A stretch of DNA of 64,000 nt from a virus. The first letter of the stretch is position 1; each line of letters starts with the position of its first letter. Shown piece after piece: positions 4,401-45,736 of the stretch. Both the position numbers and the translations under genes were made by a program. The notes under the pieces were generated by a model that was not told where the DNA came from, made no database searches, and saw nothing but the letters and a program-made list of their open reading frames with translations. Location: positions 1-64,000 of the IMG/VR virus record IMGVR_UViG_3300033997_000220. One strand, given 5' to 3'.

Positions 4401-7400
4401 AAAACTATTTACTCCTTTAAAGACATCACAGGACCTGTGGTGGATAACTTTGGGAAAGTGGTGCTTTCCGTAGAGGACTTCCAAGCGGGCTTAGTCACGA
4501 CTGACGGTAAACCACTGCGTACACCCGCGGAGCGTTTATACGCCATCGGGAAAAAAGGCGTAGGCTTAGCGGTTTCCGCTGGTAAGAAAGTATGGGAGCT
4601 TACGAAGAAAGCGCACGTCAAAACGTGGGGTTTACTCAAGAAAGGGTTAGGGTGGGTAGGTTCTGGCGTCAAAGGAAACATCGGTGTCTCGTTTGGGAGT
4701 CAGTCTGGCGACTCTGAAACGTTAGATCTGCAGTCCAAACAACTGGACGTCTTACTGCGTATCCATGACTTACTGATCCGTGGGTTTAAGTTTGAAGACG
4801 CTCCTTTAGGTGGGTATGGTGCAGCGGGTATCTTCGCAAAAGCCAAAGCCGCAGGAAAGAAAGCAGCAAGTAAACTCTCTGACGTAGAGATCTCCACCTT
4901 AGTCGATGACACCATGGATAAACTCAAGAAAATCGGTGTACCTGATGGGTATATCGAAAAACTGGAGAGTATCAAACAGGACATCGACTCTGCTGGCGGT
5001 TACAAAGAGTACCTGAAGGCTCAAAAGAAAAGCTTCTCTGAGAAACTCAAAGAACGCATTGCTGGAGAGGACAAACGGGAAAACTCGTGGGTGGACATTA
5101 TCCGTGACCGTAAAGAAGCAGCGAAAGGGAAAATGACAGGGTGGAAAGATCGTGTCTTAGGAGACAAAGACAATCCATCGTGGTTAGGGAAGATTCTCTT
5201 TGCGATTGCTGGGTTAGGGACGTTGTTCACAACTGCCGTAGGAAAAGTCGTGAGTACACTAACGACGATGTGGGGAGGAGTGAAAGCGATTCGCGACACT
5301 GTACTCGCCACACAAGCTGCAGCTGGAGCAGCAGACTTACTGACTCCTGATGGGTTACCAGAAGGCGCGGACAAAAAAGGAAAGCTTCGTGCGAAAACGA
5401 AGCTAGGTCGTTTAGGTCAAGCGGCGTGGGGTGGGACCAAAGCTTTAGGACGCGGTGCGCTTAGTGTAGCGAAGTGGACAGTAGGCATGCCTGCATTACT
5501 ACTAGCACGGGGAGCACTCGGCTTAGGCGCGTTAGGTTTAGGCGCAGCAGCATCGATCCTAACGTCTCCTGTGGTTCTAGGCAGCCTTGCTGTTGGAGCT
5601 GTAGGGTATGGCGCTTATAAAGGCTATCGTGCGTTACGTGGCGAACTGAAGCCATTAGAGCGCTTACGCGCGGCAGAGTACGGACGAGACCCTAACTCCA
5701 TTGGTGACTTTGAAGACATCCGTGCGTTAGAAGAGAAACTCAGACCTCACTTGATCCTTTCTTCTAAGGGTCCTGCGTCGTTAGACAAAGAACTTCCATG
5801 GAAAGAACTCGTGGATATCTTTGGGATCGACACGAAAGACAAGACAGAAACGATGACGTGGGCCAACTGGTTCCAGTACCGTTTTGCTCCTGTGTACTTA
5901 CGGTGGGTGACGTTAGTACCTCAGTTCCAACCTGGGGTGACGTTAAGTGACCTCGACGGAAAACTCAAAGATTCCTTCAAGGTTCCTTACGCGGAGAAAG
6001 TCACGTGGCGTAAAGACGAAGCAGGGTATCCATACACGGTCGCTGCGGGTCCTTATGGTGAGAGTGACTCAGAGATGGGCGACTCTGTCGTTAAAGAGGA
6101 ACTTACAGCACTCACTGCACTCTTTGGAGACGATGCTTTACGTGAGAAAGCCAAAGAGCGTTTAGCTGCTCAAGGCTCTGGCTCTGGGTCTTTAGGGTTT
6201 GTCGCTGGAATGAAAGACGGGATGCCTACAGCAGGCAGTGCGAAACTGGCTGAGTTCAGTGCACCACAACCGGGAAGACAGAGTAACCTCAAAACGTACA
6301 AAGCGGGAGCTCTGGAGTACGTCACACCATCTACCCTACCGAACTCTGTGAACACCAAATTCACAGACACACTCACGAATGAATTCGGACAGCGCAACAA
6401 CAACATCGATGACTTTGCGGCAGTGCGTCTGAAAACGTACGGGTTGGTGACGTTAGAGGTAGAGAAAGTCAACAGCGTGTTAGCGCTAGAGTCTGACGTC
6501 TTACAGCAAGTGGTGTACAACGCAGCAGGTAGAGCAGAGTTGGTCAAAGACCCCATGCATTACCTGATGCTGTACGCGTCTCACTTTGGGGTAAACACGG
6601 AGAACCCAGACCAACGTACCGAGTGGTTGTACTGGTTCCAGTACCGGTTTACTCCGGTGTTACTGAACTTTATCGCCGCAGTGAAGCGAATTGACAAAAA
6701 CGCAGAACCACGTAGTGCGTCTACGAAGTTTAGTAAAGGACGGTTACACGAGATCGCCAAAGCGATTGCGTCCTCTACGACTGTGGTGGAGAAGAAACCT
6801 ACGTCTGTGTGGTCAGTGTACGCTGTAGCGTTCCCAGGTTACGCGATGAACGAACACGCAGCGTCAGTGGATGTCCACTTAGCAGCACTGAAGAAAGATG
6901 CTGAAGAAGTCGTGTATCAAACACCAGGAAGCTTACGTGCGAGTAACCTGAAGGGAGACCGTGAGGTTAAACTCAAGACAACCTACACAGCGACCGGTGG
7001 GGTTCCTGATGTCTTTAAACCGGGGAATACCGCAGGGTTAGGACAAAGTGGGATCTTCCCAAGCAGTGGGAAGTCAGGTCAACCGATAGCTCCGTTTATG
7101 GCAGGTAGTGGTGCTGGGTATCTGGAGTTACCGAACCCCAAAGGAGACGGTACGCCAGAAGCCTACGCTGCTTTACTCAAAGCCGCAGCAGAAGCCGCTG
7201 GGATTGAACCGGGAATCCTAGAGACGTTTGCAAAGATTGAATCGTCGTTTAGAACCAAGGTGAGAAATCCAGAAAGCTCTGCAACGGGTTTATTCCAGTT
7301 CACTAACCAGACGTGGAAGGAACAGCTGGGGAAGCATGCTGCTACGTACGGGATTCCAAAAGACGCAAGTCCCACAGACCCGAAAGCTTCAGCGCTGCTT

Positions 7401-17963: not shown

Positions 17964-18773
17964 ATGTTTGCAAACTTAAACGATTTACAATTTCAGCATG
18001 AGGTGTTAGCCCTCGAAGCGTTAGCGGTTCACCGACCGAACATTGGGATGGTGGAAAAACTGGGTACGATGGTCGATTCTGTCAGTAATCAGATCGCTGA
18101 CTCGTTACGTGGTTTGATACTACCGGTTGGCGCGATCGACTTCGTACCGGCTTTACGTGAAGTGCAGAAACACAAGTACGTGGACTTATCTCCAGTGCAA
18201 TTACCGATCCCTGCAGGGTTGTCTGCTCCTTTAGTCCCTTACGGTCAGTTGCTCCTGCGTGCTCAAGAGCTATCCATGAGTATCTTGGATGACACCTTAG
18301 AGCCATTCCAGAAGTTTGTAGGGGAGGCATTGAACAATCCTGAGAAATTAGGCAGTAGTGTTTTACGTGCACAAAACCATCCAAAAGAAATAAAGGACTT
18401 GCAGAACAAACTGAAAGACGTATTTCGTAATGGCACGAAAGCCACACGTCCTTACAGTGAAGTCATTCGTAACAACAACGACTGGGTAGAACTCAAAGAC
18501 ATCTGCACGACGTTAAAACGCAACGCAGACCGTCAGAGTCCAAAAGACTTTGCTGACACCGTCACTGAGTTAGACCAACAACTGCGTACGTTGATCAAAC
18601 GGATTCGAGACACCAACGAGCAGTACCGCCCTTCTCCTGAAGTGGTGAAACAACTGGCAGATCTCTCCTACACATTAGCAGAGCAAGTCAGTTTCTACAG
18701 TGTGGTGAACACGCTGATCGCTTCGTACCTGAAAGCTGTAGAAGACGCTGTGGATGTGATCAAAAAACTGTAA
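17964..18773 (+). CDS. Hypothetical helical, probable virion protein, 269 aa
   Basis: No recognised family. Almost entirely helical with heptad-like leucines (residues 20-60 and 130-265), no signal peptide, and a moderately hydrophobic end. AAAGG precedes the ATG at 17964; an in-frame earlier start would add three residues. It is a single-gene rightward unit with its own terminator, like other isolated genes in this half of the window that look like virion components. Confidence 0.75.
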   Translation: MFANLNDLQFQHEVLALEALAVHRPNIGMVEKLGTMVDSVSNQIADSLRGLILPVGAIDFVPALREVQKHKYVDLSPVQLPIPAGLSAPLVPYGQLLLRAQELSMSILDDTLEPFQKFVGEALNNPEKLGSSVLRAQNHPKEIKDLQNKLKDVFRNGTKATRPYSEVIRNNNDWVELKDICTTLKRNADRQSPKDFADTVTELDQQLRTLIKRIRDTNEQYRPSPEVVKQLADLSYTLAEQVSFYSVVNTLIASYLKAVEDAVDVIKKL

Positions 18774-41948: not shown

Positions 41949-42350
41949 TTACGCAAATGCTTTGTTGATTAATTGTTTTGCTTCTTCTACGTCACCAGTA
42001 AACACAAAGTGTGTTACTTCCGTGGTTCCGTCCTTTCCCGTGTGGTGATGGATTCTTACTAACTGTCCTCCCTGGTACGACAGTTGCACGTAGTTCTCAC
42101 ACACGTACACGGTGTAGCTTCCTTTCCCGTAGCTTGAGACTTCAAACGTACGTCCTGTCTCTCCACTGGTGACGTCTCGGGCGTACTCGTAATGAAACCC
42201 CCAATCCGCTGGAGTGCTCAATTTGTATAAAACCTCTTCTACGTAAGGCTTGTGGCGATTTTGTTCTCTTTGTTCTAGATCTGCCAACCAGCCTATTAAC
42301 AGCAGGCCAGCGAACACCGTCAACACAACGTAGATCGTATTCTCATTCAT
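41949..42350 (-). CDS. Single-pass membrane protein, 133 aa
   Basis: No recognised family. N-terminal membrane helix (residues 5-23, Y-V-V-L-T-V-F-A-G-L-L-L-I-G-W) then a charged linker and a beta-rich domain containing H-H-H-T-G. Same N-anchor/C-domain layout as the preceding gene. GAGGAG precedes the ATG. Confidence 0.76.
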   Translation of the reverse strand: MNENTIYVVLTVFAGLLLIGWLADLEQREQNRHKPYVEEVLYKLSTPADWGFHYEYARDVTSGETGRTFEVSSYGKGSYTVYVCENYVQLSYQGGQLVRIHHHTGKDGTTEVTHFVFTGDVEEAKQLINKAFA

Positions 42351-42360
42351 TTCTCTCTCC

Positions 42361-43065
42361 TCAGTTTTTTGTTTGTACGTAACGGTCTAACAGTTCCCAA
42401 TTCAATGGCGTATACAAAGGTTCTATTTGTAACCCTTCTTTACTGAACGTGAGTACCTGCCCTTTGTGTTTCTCTATCAGCCCTAATTCGGCTTTCCCTA
42501 GTATCCGGTGTTCCTTTTTATACACCGAGTATTTCTTCCATCGAGCTTGCATTTTCTTTTTATCTCTGGTGTCCTTAAAGTCTCCAGCAAAGAAGCTCTG
42601 GAATAAACCCAACTTTGCTGTAGGTAAACCACACACCCGCACCACGGCTTCTGACTGTTGGACAAAGACTTGATCTACAGCCTGTTCTTTTAACGCCTCG
42701 AGGTGTTCTACTAATTGTCCTTCTGCGTCTTTAAAAACCTTCAGTACTTTCCCTACCGTAACACGCTCCCCTACGGTTTCTGTTAAACGTTTCGCTAGAC
42801 TCCCCATGCGTTTATACAACAATGAAACGTCCTCCACCAACAAGTGTTCAAAGAACGCAACCTGCGAGCAGCTAGACGTATTCCCAAACGACTGCGTGTA
42901 CGTAAGGTCTGGGTGATACAACACTTGTAGACAGGCAGATATTTCTTTTGGGGAGATTCCTAATTCTACTTTCATGTATTTACGGATCTGTTTGTTCAGT
43001 AACTTATCGAATACCACGACTGGTTCTTTATGACTGTAGTCTCCGTATTTCATCACTCTACGCAT
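42361..43065 (-). CDS. Hypothetical basic protein, 234 aa
   Basis: No recognised family. Basic and helical throughout (e.g. R-D-K-K-K-M-Q-A-R-W-K-K-Y-S), likely to bind nucleic acid or a nucleoprotein. AAAGG is present 11 bases before the ATG; a second in-frame Met follows four residues later. First gene of unit A, transcribed away from the structured region at 43.1-43.6 kb, with candidate promoter motifs at 43094-43116. Confidence 0.74.
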   Translation of the reverse strand: MRRVMKYGDYSHKEPVVVFDKLLNKQIRKYMKVELGISPKEISACLQVLYHPDLTYTQSFGNTSSCSQVAFFEHLLVEDVSLLYKRMGSLAKRLTETVGERVTVGKVLKVFKDAEGQLVEHLEALKEQAVDQVFVQQSEAVVRVCGLPTAKLGLFQSFFAGDFKDTRDKKKMQARWKKYSVYKKEHRILGKAELGLIEKHKGQVLTFSKEGLQIEPLYTPLNWELLDRYVQTKN

Positions 43066-43138
43066 GGTACGTATACCTTTGATTGATTGTCTCTACCTGT
43101 ATATTAAATACCTGTAATTCTTTCCAGACCGCATAGAC
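43066..43138 (-). promoter_or_regulatory. Candidate early promoter of unit A (two ACAGGTA copies)
   Basis: In minus-strand sense the sequence is ATTACAGGTATTTAATATACAGGTAGAGACAATC: two ACAGGTA copies 15 bases apart, at 43109-43116 and 43094-43102. The second is shared with the gap upstream of unit C, including flanking A/T and a downstream ATC. It may be an early promoter or repressor site; phiKZ early promoters are AT-rich with TATATTAC, so the motif would be a relative, not identical. Confidence 0.5.
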
Positions 43139-43159
43139 GGGAGGGGTGTGTCCCCTCCC
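43139..43159 (-). terminator. Hairpin, first in structured array
   Basis: Perfect 8-bp stem GGGAGGGG/CCCCTCCC with TGTGT loop; same style as the genome's terminators and flanked on the left by GCATA. With no gene between it and 43585 to terminate, it may stop transcripts that enter from the right or left. Confidence 0.6.
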
Positions 43160-43584
43160 TCTTAGCTACTGGACTCTCGTCTTAGGAGAAGGGTAGTGGG
43201 TGTAAGCACCCACGCTACTCCTGTCTGTCTAGAGAGAGTACTACCTCTCTCTAGGGATAGGGATGGTGAGTGTCTGGACACTCACACTACTGAAGGATAC
43301 TGTCTGTATTATGACAGACAGTTCTCTCTCCTGTATCTGTAGATACAGGGAATAAGGATATCGTTCATAGAGAGGATAAGGAAGTCATTCACTACGTTCA
43401 TTCCTCTATACCTTATCTCTCTATTCTCTCTACTATATTAACTAATAGTTACACACACAAAAAGCCCCACCCCAACCCCTCCCATTGCTGGAAAGAGGCA
43501 GTAGTCAGTGACTACATAGTATACGTAGACTCAGTGTAAAAAATAACTATTCTTTGATACAAAGAGTAGTGAGCGAGGTGTGTG
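43160..43584. other. Hairpin array and G-quadruplex motif in a gene-free region
   Basis: 425 bases without a credible gene. Stems seen: 43191-43202/43207-43220 (12 bp with a two-base bulge), 43229-43238/43245-43254 (10 bp, CTAGAGAGAG), 43266-43273/43278-43285 (8 bp), 43299-43307/43314-43322 (9 bp), 43330-43337/43342-43349 (8 bp), 43367-43381/43411-43424 (14 bp, one bulge), 43501-43505/43511-43515, and 43546-43556/43560-43570 (11 bp with one G-U). A G4 motif lies at 43465-43483 on the minus strand. This could be a structured noncoding RNA, a replication or packaging site, or a leader. No known RNA family is recognised. Confidence 0.6.
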
Positions 43585-43845
43585 ATGCAACAATCTGTAA
43601 CCATTCCTGCGAATGGGTATATAAAGGTTTTAGTGAACGTACGTCCTGGTGCTGTGTTCTCTGTAGTGCCTGGTGTAGGAGGACACATGCACGTCGAGTT
43701 CACGGTAGTCGACGGAGGACATCGATATCTGTGGGATAAAGCGAGTGTAAACAGTCCTACGTGGCATGTGGTAGACTGTCCTATGGCTGAAGTGTATGTA
43801 AAGGCAGACGTAGCTGCTGGTGTATTTGAATGGAGAAACCCATGA
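43585..43845 (+). CDS. Small beta-rich protein, 86 aa
   Basis: No recognised family. Starts M-Q-Q-S-V-T-I-P-A-N-G-Y-I-K-V and is built of short strands with G-G-H and W-H-V loops, likely a small beta-barrel or jelly-roll such as a head decoration or tail-tip protein. GAGG at 43575-43578 serves the ATG at 43585; GTG three bases earlier is less well spaced. It overlaps the GH108 gene by ATGA, suggesting coupled expression with lysis or virion assembly. No membrane segment, so not a holin. Confidence 0.75.
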   Translation: MQQSVTIPANGYIKVLVNVRPGAVFSVVPGVGGHMHVEFTVVDGGHRYLWDKASVNSPTWHVVDCPMAEVYVKADVAAGVFEWRNP

Positions 43846-44453
43846 AACAACCGTTAACGAAGAATGAATGTATCCACGAAGTCGTGGTGGTAGAAGGTGG
43901 GTACGTGGATGACCCGAATGACTTAGGGGGAGAGACCAACTATGGGATCACCAAAGAGACAGCAATGAAGTACAAACACTGGTGGGCTCACTACAAGTGG
44001 GACGGAAACATGCGGACAATGCCAGTGGATTTTGTGTATGCGGTGTATGACGTGGAGTATTGGCAACGTTTGAACTTAGACACCATCGCAAAACGCTCTG
44101 TAACGCTCGCTAGTCGATTATTTGACTTTGGTGTGAATGCTGGTATAGCTAACGCAGCACAAGCGCTACAACGCAGTTTAAACGTGTTAAATAAGCAGGG
44201 TACTTTGTATCCTGATATTGAGTTAGGGACGATCATTGGTCCTGTGACTCTAAAAGCGTTTGAAGGGTATGCGAATACCGTGACGAAAGACTCAGCTGGG
44301 TTTGAGAAACTGACGTTGATGATCTACGGTTTACAGATCGCACACTACGTGAAGATCTCGGAAGAGCGTCAGAAGAACGAAGACTTTACACGGGGGTGGG
44401 TGAACCGTGTATGGAAAGCATTCTGGAATTACGCGGAGTGGTTGACACCTTAG
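43842..44453 (+). CDS. GH108 endolysin
   Basis: 203 residues. E-G-G-Y-V-D-D-P-N-D-x-G-G-E-T-N-Y-G-I-T contains the GH108 signature with the catalytic Glu18 at its first position. The C-terminal half (V-N-A-G-I-A-N-A-A-Q-A-L-Q-R-S-L) matches the peptidoglycan-binding PG_binding_3-type helices typical of this family. It would hydrolyse peptidoglycan at lysis. The ATG at 43842 has GGAGA six bases upstream and shares ATGA with the previous gene; an upstream Met adds four residues. No signal peptide, so it needs a holin for export; none is visible next to it. Confidence 0.88.
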   Translation: MKQPLTKNECIHEVVVVEGGYVDDPNDLGGETNYGITKETAMKYKHWWAHYKWDGNMRTMPVDFVYAVYDVEYWQRLNLDTIAKRSVTLASRLFDFGVNAGIANAAQALQRSLNVLNKQGTLYPDIELGTIIGPVTLKAFEGYANTVTKDSAGFEKLTLMIYGLQIAHYVKISEERQKNEDFTRGWVNRVWKAFWNYAEWLTP

Positions 44454-44458
44454 GTGTA

Positions 44459-44491
44459 GCATAGAGGGAGGCGTAAAGCCTCCCTCTATGC
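44459..44491. terminator. Terminator with full GCATA/TATGC arms
   Basis: Perfect 14-bp stem GCATAGAGGGAGGC/GCCTCCCTCTATGC with GTAAA loop, between the converging endolysin and tail-fibre operons. Confidence 0.88.
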
Positions 44492-44518
44492 TGGGTTTGT
44501 AACCAAGATACGAACTCG

Positions 44519-45736
44519 TTATTTTGCTCTTACGTAATCAACGAAGCTACCGGAAGATGTCGCGCTTGGTGTTCCCGCCAGAAAACCTCCAATTGTATTT
44601 CCCACAAACACTCTCTGTGACGTCAATACCGTCGGCATCGAATGATCGACTTCCACGTAGTTCACAAAATCCGTTGTCGTGTAAAAACGCCCCTCCTCGC
44701 CGTTGGTCCAGTGTTTGTTGTCGAAGAAACCTGCGTAAGACAAGAAATACGTTTTGTTGGCCCCGAGCGGAAAATCGGTCATAGTAGCACCAGAGTTATT
44801 ACTATAATAAAATCCTCTATTGCCAGCCGCATCGGAGTAAGGCACTATATTTCTAAAAGACCCACCACCAGGAAGTAGATGAAACGAGAAAGTCCTAGGT
44901 AAACTCAACCCACTCGTGTCCACAACCGCACCTAACGTAAAACTAAACGTAGAGTCGTTGGCATAAAGCAAACGGAACGCGGTACCTCCACTAAAACGCG
45001 CCATAACGACGTAGTTGGTACCGTCCCAAACAATTCCGTAGGGCCACCAGTTAGACGAGGTGTTCACGTCTACGGTGACTCTAGTCGGACTTGTGTTGGT
45101 CAGGTTGTTGGCTTTCTCGATGGCGAATCTGGAATGTGTGCCCGTGTCCGATCTACTTTTGCGGAGCACCGCAAAGTTATTAGGGCTGGCAGCATACCAA
45201 TCAGGCCAACCGTGCGTCCCATCCGCCACAGACGACGACGCGATGGTCCACGCGACACCGTCCGTGCTATGCCCAAAAATCCAGGTATGGTCGTTTTGGG
45301 AAGCTAAATAAATCACTCTGTTGAATCCGGGATGCCAAAACCCTACGTTTAAAGAGCCGTTGGTGATTATAGTTCCAATGTTATTCAAAAAGAAAGACCA
45401 CCCCACCCCACCATCGTCACTGACCACGGTACCTTTAGGACCACCACTCGCGCTCTGAACTGGAATTACAATCCTGCCAGTGGATGGTATCTGACACGGA
45501 GTTGCGATTCCCAAAACGTTACCATAAAGAGTAGGTAATACAGAACTCGTACTTAAGTTTAGTCTTCCAAAACGCCAGAACGTCGTATCGATCAGATTTT
45601 GGTCCGATAGTACAGTACCCGTACGCACATACACTTTTGTACCGTCGATGTGCACGTGAGGCGTTCGTTCATAGAAGGTCGTCTTGGCCCCAACAGCTAC
45701 ATCACCACCACCGAAAAATCTCGCTAAATTACCCAT
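44519..45736 (-). CDS. Tail-associated Asp-box beta-propeller protein, 405 aa
   Basis: Asp-box-like motifs repeat along the chain (S-D-D-G-G-V-G-W-S-F, S-T-D-G-V-A-W, Y-S-N-N-S-G-A-T-M), typical of sialidase-type beta-propellers. The N-terminus is M-G-N-L-A-R-F-F and the C-terminus ends Y-V-R-A-K; the 424-aa protein at 56687 has the same layout and ends Y-V-R-I-K. The location at the end of the fibre operon suggests receptor binding. No catalytic Arg triad of sialidase could be identified with confidence, so binding may be its only role. Confidence 0.78.
   Translation of the reverse strand: MGNLARFFGGGDVAVGAKTTFYERTPHVHIDGTKVYVRTGTVLSDQNLIDTTFWRFGRLNLSTSSVLPTLYGNVLGIATPCQIPSTGRIVIPVQSASGGPKGTVVSDDGGVGWSFFLNNIGTIITNGSLNVGFWHPGFNRVIYLASQNDHTWIFGHSTDGVAWTIASSSVADGTHGWPDWYAASPNNFAVLRKSRSDTGTHSRFAIEKANNLTNTSPTRVTVDVNTSSNWWPYGIVWDGTNYVVMARFSGGTAFRLLYANDSTFSFTLGAVVDTSGLSLPRTFSFHLLPGGGSFRNIVPYSDAAGNRGFYYSNNSGATMTDFPLGANKTYFLSYAGFFDNKHWTNGEEGRFYTTTDFVNYVEVDHSMPTVLTSQRVFVGNTIGGFLAGTPSATSSGSFVDYVRAK

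Follow-up and report, generated by a model that had tools for sequence, protein, structure and literature searches.

Comparison with other phage genomes shows that the hairpin at positions 43367-43424 of the window, the 64,000-base stretch of viral DNA analysed here, belongs to a conserved noncoding element that is present in part of the phiKZ-like jumbo phages and whose features fit one strand only. We read it as a gene-independent element that would act as a single strand, probably as a structured segment of an RNA that is transcribed leftward, and we put this reading at roughly one chance in three, with a replication origin close behind. The sequence-only reading of this DNA had pointed to a dense series of unrelated hairpins. 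These are indeed present, but the conserved unit is one strand-specific hairpin, often accompanied by a G-tract, and it extends past the segment that had been outlined.

The window phage and its hairpin array

The IMG/VR virus record from which the window comes is 67,720 b long. Three more IMG/VR contigs are identical to it across the 12.6-12.7-kb pieces compared, and one of these three, G001, is 233,377 b long with a 127-b terminal repeat (a G001 position minus 86,521 gives the window position). G001 codes for RNA polymerase beta subunits and DNA polymerases, for UvsX-, RNase H- and SbcC-like proteins and for phage structural proteins; 53 of its 237 ORFs match PS1 and 48 match AhC3_1 (tblastn, E <= 1e-5; 20-42% amino-acid identity). 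On account of these genes and protein matches, the window phage is read as a divergent 233-kb phiKZ-like jumbo phage. For AerS_266, a relative of PS1 and AhC3_1, PMC10673249 reports chimallin, PhuZ and two multisubunit RNA polymerases.

The features discussed below are the following, where private marks hairpins with no counterpart found beyond the four identical contigs.

42361-43065, minus strand: ORF of 234 aa, the downstream gene on the element's strand
43066-43581, no strand assigned: gap without long ORFs, with a leftward gene on one side and a rightward gene on the other
43139-43159, no strand assigned: private hairpin, GGGAGGGG/CCCCTCCC, 8 bp, from the perfect-stem search, to the left of the array as first described
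43190-43222, no strand assigned: private hairpin with a bulge, perfect core of 7 bp at 43196-43213, from the sequence and the plus-strand fold
43229-43254, no strand assigned: private hairpin, 10 bp, from the perfect-stem search
43266-43285, no strand assigned: private hairpin, 8 bp, from the perfect-stem search
43299-43322, no strand assigned: private hairpin, 9 bp, from the perfect-stem search
43330-43349, no strand assigned: private hairpin, 8 bp, from the perfect-stem search
43367-43424, minus strand: conserved hairpin with a lower stem, a 4-nt bulge (TATA), GAG:CTT, two tandem G.A mismatch sets and the tip AC-GTA-GT, from the fold and from relatives
43465-43483, minus strand: G-tract GGGAGGGGTTGGGGTGGGG, starting 74-84 nt before the hairpin core
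43511-43549, no strand assigned: AT-rich segment ACTACATAGTATACGTA...AAAAAATAACTA, similar by eye to what AhC3_1 and PS1 have at the element's far end
43830-44453, plus strand: endolysin to the right of the gap, from a PHROG match (phrog_315)

The gap is bordered by the ORFs 42361-43065 (minus) and 43582-43845 (plus) and holds short ORFs alone, such as 43196-43342 (48 aa); the region had been called gene-free, which is right in the sense that it lacks any long ORF. Besides the one long imperfect hairpin, it has six perfect stems that are 7 bp or longer, with loops of 3-12. In 1000 dinucleotide shuffles the number of such stems averaged 0.48 and never exceeded 3; the corresponding values are 5 against 0.13 for stems of at least 8 bp, and 5 against 0.34 for stems of at least 7 bp in 43160-43440 alone, each with 0 of 1000 shuffles as high. 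RNA folding of 43120-43470 gave z values of -6.6 (plus) and -7.4 (minus), with 0 of 100 shuffles as good on each strand. The array is also the densest hairpin site in G001, where the starts of 6 stems of 7 bp or more fall within 300 b, compared with 4 at the runner-up. The density claimed for the array thus holds against all 1000 shuffles; of the six stems counted between 43191 and 43424, five are perfect and the sixth (43367-43424) is imperfect, and a further one lies just outside that array, at 43139-43159. That the stems are not copies of one repeat is likewise borne out, with one weak exception, a pair of 24-nt segments (43343-43366 and 43367-43390) that are 75% alike.

The remaining hairpins have no known relatives to compare. 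A blastn search with 42000-45000 against the phage collection and a search for the locus through its two flanking proteins found no counterpart of the five array hairpins or of 43139-43159 beyond the four identical contigs, so the six-hairpin layout is not established as a conserved family. Two further explanations of the array were rejected: terminators, for which T runs are absent by eye, and copies of one repeat, as the stems differ in sequence. (The window has 35 listed hairpins, several of which, besides the array, resemble ordinary terminators by eye.) It is possible, at roughly one chance in three, that the hairpins of 43139-43349 are a local build-up of palindromes beside one conserved hairpin and have no joint function; their lack of relatives and the weak duplication adjoining the conserved hairpin favour this, whereas a density exceeding every shuffle and the perfection of the private stems, which suggests selection or recent origin, speak against it.

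Recurrence, fold and strand of the hairpin at 43367-43424

The apex of the hairpin, TCATTCACTACGTTCATTCC at 43385-43404, is the sole site of its kind in the window when up to 3 mismatches are allowed. A blastn search with 42000-45000 against 50,697 phage records gave one match, 43376-43446 to AhC3_1, and a search with the hairpin alone gave ten records, eight from six Aeromonas jumbo phages and two that are weak and probably due to chance. Following the matches led to second copies in PS1/PS2, ACP1, AVP1 and pAEv1810 and to further members in CF8, ZPAH34 and AerS_266. A 12-base pattern matched 10 of 12 genomes, compared with one match in total for the reversed pattern, and revealed new true hairpins in AhC3_1 (copy 2), CF8 (copy 2), LAh10 and OBP, along with several other matches that are coding or chance. 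Using OBP as a starting point then gave members in Survivor, pEt-SU and Kc263. In all, the core GAACGWAGTGA was tabulated in 19 gaps from 15 jumbo-phage genomes, including the window phage, with hosts in five named genera; the 19 gaps were selected for holding the core, so their number is not a rate. Second copies in PS2, AVP1 and pAEv1810 and the LAh10-like D3, D6 and D9 stand outside this table, and the tip-bearing IMG/VR contigs L022, L023, L135-L142 and L176-L178 were excluded from the counts. Two annotated coding sequences were treated as doubtful, one of 114 b that overlaps the hairpin in ACP1 copy 1 and one of 222 b that holds the G-tract in PS1 copy 2.

The element is not universal. 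Two of six phiKZ-like genomes tested with the 12-base pattern without a known copy have the hairpin (LAh10 and OBP), and it is absent, as a hairpin, from the other four, phiKZ, Goslar, SPN3US and PCH45. Goslar and SPN3US gave zero matches to the pattern; matches in PCH45, phiKZ, PS1 (134207) and G001 (214249) were dropped by eye as coding or chance with unpaired flanks, and one in CF8 (188756) because it lies within an annotated GroEL gene. The pattern also had a second match in LAh10 (134496), and the one match of the reversed pattern was in AerS_266. A whole-genome scan of five genomes with a structural descriptor gave one or two accepted copies each and missed PS1 copy 2; seven further matches were dropped by eye (G001 three, AhC3_1 two, OBP two), although shuffles of the first three genomes gave just 0.2 per genome. 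In N1M2 the G.A hairpin is missing and a GATTAC-GTA-GTAATC hairpin stands in its place, which was not counted as compensation because it is similar to a separate OBP hairpin.

At E <= 1e-4, blastn of the complete G001 and AhC3_1 genomes gives a single match, the hairpin (72 nt, 83%), although the 48 matching proteins share just 21-41% amino-acid identity. It indicates either strong constraint or a transfer from phage to phage. The same comparison of G001 with PS1, CF8 and OBP gave 3, 2 and 1 matches, none of them at the hairpin.

On the strand of the downstream gene, which is the minus strand in the window, the hairpin has the tip AC-GWA-GT, 5'-GA/GA tandem mismatches outside it and then two to five pairs, below which some members carry a second G.A set; this outer set is replaced by TT:AA in CF8, ZPAH34, AerS_266, AhC3_1 copy 2 and LAh10. 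In the window phage and its closest look-alikes these parts are followed by a bulge of 3-4 nt at the 5' side and then by a longer lower stem. In ten distinct upper hairpins (21-mers), 84.3% of the cells pair, a value reached by none of 500 shuffles and by no slid control (none above 50%), and the covariation score is 0.279 against 0.153, reached by 2 of 500. Double changes occur at three pairs (A-U to C-G, U-A to G-C and U-A to A-U). The count of pairs in which both sides change is ordinary (191 of 500 shuffles) and that of further pair types is under shuffle level (460 of 500), so that two of five measures lie beyond nearly all shuffles and two do not; moreover, the ten 21-mers are related, and kinship can outdo shuffles even without structure. 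With this caveat the upper stem appears to covary as a structured noncoding RNA would. The covariation among related jumbo phages that the sequence-only reading had asked for is therefore found at 43367-43424, while the other hairpins have no known counterparts in which to look for it.

Lower stems pair despite differing sequence in the window phage, AhC3_1, CF8, ZPAH34 and AerS_266. When the flanks were shuffled base by base 300 times and folded as RNA, 4, 1, 1, 0 and 0 shuffles, respectively, folded as well on the minus strand, and the plus-strand fold was about equally significant (6, 4, 3, 0 and 0). Flank pairing is weak in Ferozepurvirus (PS1 copy 2, 41 of 300; ACP1 copy 2, 17 of 300; two of the five copy-1 gaps, 165 and 236 of 300). 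Because both strands fold about equally well, the strand assignment rests on the mismatches alone: they are G.A on the minus strand and C.T on the opposite one, and T-A to T.G changes preserve a wobble on the minus strand only. By eye, the window's conserved hairpin has neither the G+C-rich stem nor the following T run of an intrinsic terminator.

The proposal that this region holds something undescribed, outside the known RNA families, survives a search of Rfam 15, which had no match in the window at or above the gathering score. The best one below it was snoZ30 at 43361-43444 (minus; 19.8 of 50 bits, E 0.32), followed by six others that were weaker, and in AerS_266 there was STnc400 (28.5 of 80 bits, E 0.089). 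A literature search of incomplete coverage, especially for subscription papers, found no description of the element, including in passages of PMC12390700, PMC10673249, PMC10321303 and PMC12571901, and the element is therefore a candidate for one undescribed so far.

Intron-like sequences form a separate group in G001. A group I intron lies at 5377-5767 (minus; L037; Rfam RF00028, 53.8 bits against a gathering score of 50), and GATATAGTC-like cores occur at 18552, 86081, 174541 and 204337, all four in inter-ORF gaps, where an Rfam search did not reach the group I intron gathering score. One of the four lies just ahead of the window, flanked by two RNA polymerase beta-subunit ORFs. The blastn matches of G001 to PS1 and CF8 fall in inter-ORF gaps in 5 of 5 cases and in intron-like gaps in 4 of 5.

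Flanking genes and neighbouring sequence

In all 12 gaps whose flanking genes run in the same direction, the hairpin strand is the strand of the genes (AhC3_1 two, CF8 copy 1, ZPAH34, AerS_266, PS1 copy 2, ACP1 copy 2, LAh10, OBP, Survivor, pEt-SU and Kc263), although by position these count as only some three independent sites: Aeromonas site I, the site of AhC3_1 copy 2 and LAh10, and the OBP group. The 7 divergent gaps (the window, CF8 copy 2 and five Ferozepurvirus copy-1 gaps) are uninformative, because either strand points at a gene. In the 19 gaps the core starts 43-355 nt upstream of a same-strand annotated start or long ORF (in ZPAH34 about 355, across the record start).

The genes themselves are mostly unrelated. 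In the window the product of 42361-43065 has no PHROG match and no tblastn match (E <= 0.01) in the 50,697 phage records, and none of ten downstream proteins tested has a PHROG match. Among 19 downstream proteins (one from N1M2 and 18 from the tabulated gaps, ZPAH34 being left out) there are just four related pairs (blastp E <= 0.01), and we rejected the element as the leader of one conserved gene; the homologous downstream genes of a cis-regulator of one gene family were not found. In five Ferozepurvirus genomes the hairpin stays beside a 3150-b CDS and the leftward genes opposite fall into four unrelated kinds.

In 12 of the 19 gaps the hairpin has a G-tract before it. Such tracts are common elsewhere in the same genomes, for example at the GGGGTAGGGG sites in OBP, and we rejected the G-tract as a specific part of the element; because they are so common, they may be separate from it, for instance the ends of the preceding transcription unit. 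At OBP positions such as 77528, 78863, 141090, 248454, 236479, 229820, 84757 and 11561, short inverted repeats (CTCC../CTTCC..GGAG) are followed by GGGGTAGGGG, often with a T-rich stretch next, possibly a terminator type of these phages. Repeated GGACCC(C)..TTGAC units with an AT-rich end were seen by eye in Chaoshanvirus and Ferozepurvirus, and by eye the repeats were not seen in other members. In 9 of the 19 gaps, early-promoter-like sequence (GATATTAT/GATATTAC/TATATTATT) separates the hairpin from the gene, which would place the hairpin outside that transcript. Upstream of AhC3_1 ORFs, ATATTATT (9:0), AGATATTA (15:3) and TTTTCAAA (9:0) are biased to the sense strand, as is TTTTCAAA in PS1 (11:3), which suggests TTTTCAAA..GATATTATTA as the form of an early promoter in AhC3_1 and PS1. 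Two further candidates were rejected. CTTATATATTG stands upstream of the element in OBP but, with one site in that genome, does not qualify as a general promoter; TTTGAAAATATTTGGAAG was dropped as a part of the element, being an early-promoter-like stretch near copy 1 that is also found in CF8 and OBP, and it does not occur in the window even with up to 3 mismatches.

Candidate functions of the element

Leftward transcription would yield a structured RNA segment, either as the leader of the gene or, where early-promoter-like sequence separates hairpin and gene, as a separate RNA, and the stiff tip could be a site for a phage or host protein. On the minus strand of the window phage the private hairpins come after the conserved hairpin and before the gene start, and would form a leader of hairpins if this strand is transcribed; those at 43139-43349 would lengthen the RNA that holds the conserved hairpin and keep it folded in the part leading up to the gene. 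The recurrence, orientation, structure, strand-specific mismatches, constraint and gene independence of the element, all drawn from sequence comparison, count for the RNA reading, which the orientation with the flanking genes mildly favours, while low copy number and indifference to neighbours fit either RNA or an origin. What counts against it is that no terminator marks out a small RNA, that the element is absent from phiKZ, Goslar, SPN3US and PCH45, that the other six hairpins are without comparative support and that, by analogy, the stable triloop type would fit single-stranded DNA equally. The C-GWA-G triloop is typical of stable DNA mini-hairpins, and the extra-stable mini-hairpins of the d(GCGAAGC) type have a GNA triloop. 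The C-GNA-G triloop is common to both these and the phage hairpin, but the phage tip sits in a longer natural stem with tandem G.A mismatches.

A replication origin, or a primer RNA linked to one, is doubtful as well and only a little behind the RNA reading. The AT-rich segment would open, the G-tract would favour an RNA-DNA hybrid and the hairpin would form on exposed single-stranded DNA; a start site would therefore be present in few copies per genome and be indifferent to the neighbouring gene, which agrees with the one or two accepted copies in each of the five genomes scanned whole and with the gene independence of the element. The R-loop origins of ColE1 RNA II, T4 and mitochondria have a G-tract, an AT-rich segment and hairpins on one strand. 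The element has the same three features, here known from sequence alone, and G001 encodes an RNase H-like protein. The AT-rich end and the GGACCC(C)..TTGAC repeats in Chaoshanvirus and Ferozepurvirus (by eye) point the same way, yet the repeats were not seen in other members, G-tracts are common elsewhere (as at the GGGGTAGGGG sites in OBP), and the 12/12 orientation with flanking genes, though about three independent sites stand behind it, would not be expected. No clear GC-skew turn was seen by eye at the element in G001, PS1 or AhC3_1 (4-kb bins); an origin placed by GC skew was thus rejected in these three genomes, which weakly disfavours an origin. The origins of two Aeromonas giant phages have been predicted with low reliability only, according to PMC12390700. 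A large gap at G001 214001-214720 has an AT-rich segment like the AT-rich end of the element, many GA-rich words and strong G-tracts, and is a second candidate control or origin region.

It is unlikely that the element is a DNA or RNA control element of a downstream early gene cluster (an upstream activator, an insulator or a leader) kept as the cluster head. The position of the core 43-355 nt upstream of a same-strand start in the 19 gaps, the early-promoter-like sequence that intervenes in 9 of them and the sense bias of ATATTATT, AGATATTA and TTTTCAAA in AhC3_1, and of TTTTCAAA in PS1, would suit such a role, but these genomes have many promoters and only one or two copies of the element, and a double-stranded operator has no need of strand-specific mismatches. 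Phage N4 has hairpin promoters for its virion RNA polymerase, small stable hairpins with a 3-nt loop on one strand. The element is alike in being a small one-strand hairpin with a 3-nt loop, but the window phage encodes multisubunit RNA polymerase subunits and the element has one or two copies only.

The tip itself is found outside these phages. Bacterial and archaeal genomes hold the 20-mer TCATTCACTNCGTTCATTCC in 34 stretches, against an expectation of about 2 for uniform random sequence, and two IMG/VR contigs have it in different surroundings; 9 of the 34 are, by eye, in a REP-like GTCATTGCGAG... context, and some single genomes have the 20-mer several times (the hairpin context was judged by eye, and a DNA folding program showed it in few of the 34). 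REP-like bacterial intergenic palindromes with GGAATGAACGNAGTGAATGA have the same tip and tandem G.A pattern as the phage hairpin, but their stems are different and they are repeated in some bacterial genomes, whereas the phage element has one or two copies at fixed sites. The tip is best seen as a recurrent and probably very stable structure, and the phage element as defined by place, strand and stem. Other tip-bearing contigs vary in setting: in L105 (a Taylorbacteria contig) the same tip is the loop of a long perfect stem that folds with 21 bp; in the viral contigs L137, L139 and L142 (183, 56 and 160 kb) a hairpin GTTATGAACGTAGTGAGTAAC comes shortly after GGGGGCAGGGG; and GTTATGAACGTAGTGAATAACTGAGT is common to the four contigs L135, L136, L140 and L141 in similar context. 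A mobile or REP-like hairpin, whose stable tip would spread or arise repeatedly with no function of its own here, is improbable: the bacterial and archaeal occurrences, the two sites per genome in several phages and the sole DNA match between distant genomes, which could mean transfer, are consistent with it, but the same site is retained across Ferozepurvirus as the adjacent gene changes, the upper stem covaries and the phage genomes hold one or two accepted copies rather than the many of a multiplying element.

Giant phages with a nucleus-like shell replicate and transcribe inside that shell. We tentatively suggest that the element is an unnamed noncoding one, widespread but not universal in nucleus-forming (phiKZ-like) phages, that acts as a single strand and independently of its neighbours, as a replication start or a structural RNA in the phage nucleus, and that in the window phage it may have grown into a seven-hairpin array. 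A short noncoding element that outlives its neighbour genes across five host genera and has a defined strand and fold is a direct experimental handle, and it allows similar elements in other jumbo phages to be sought by structure rather than by sequence.
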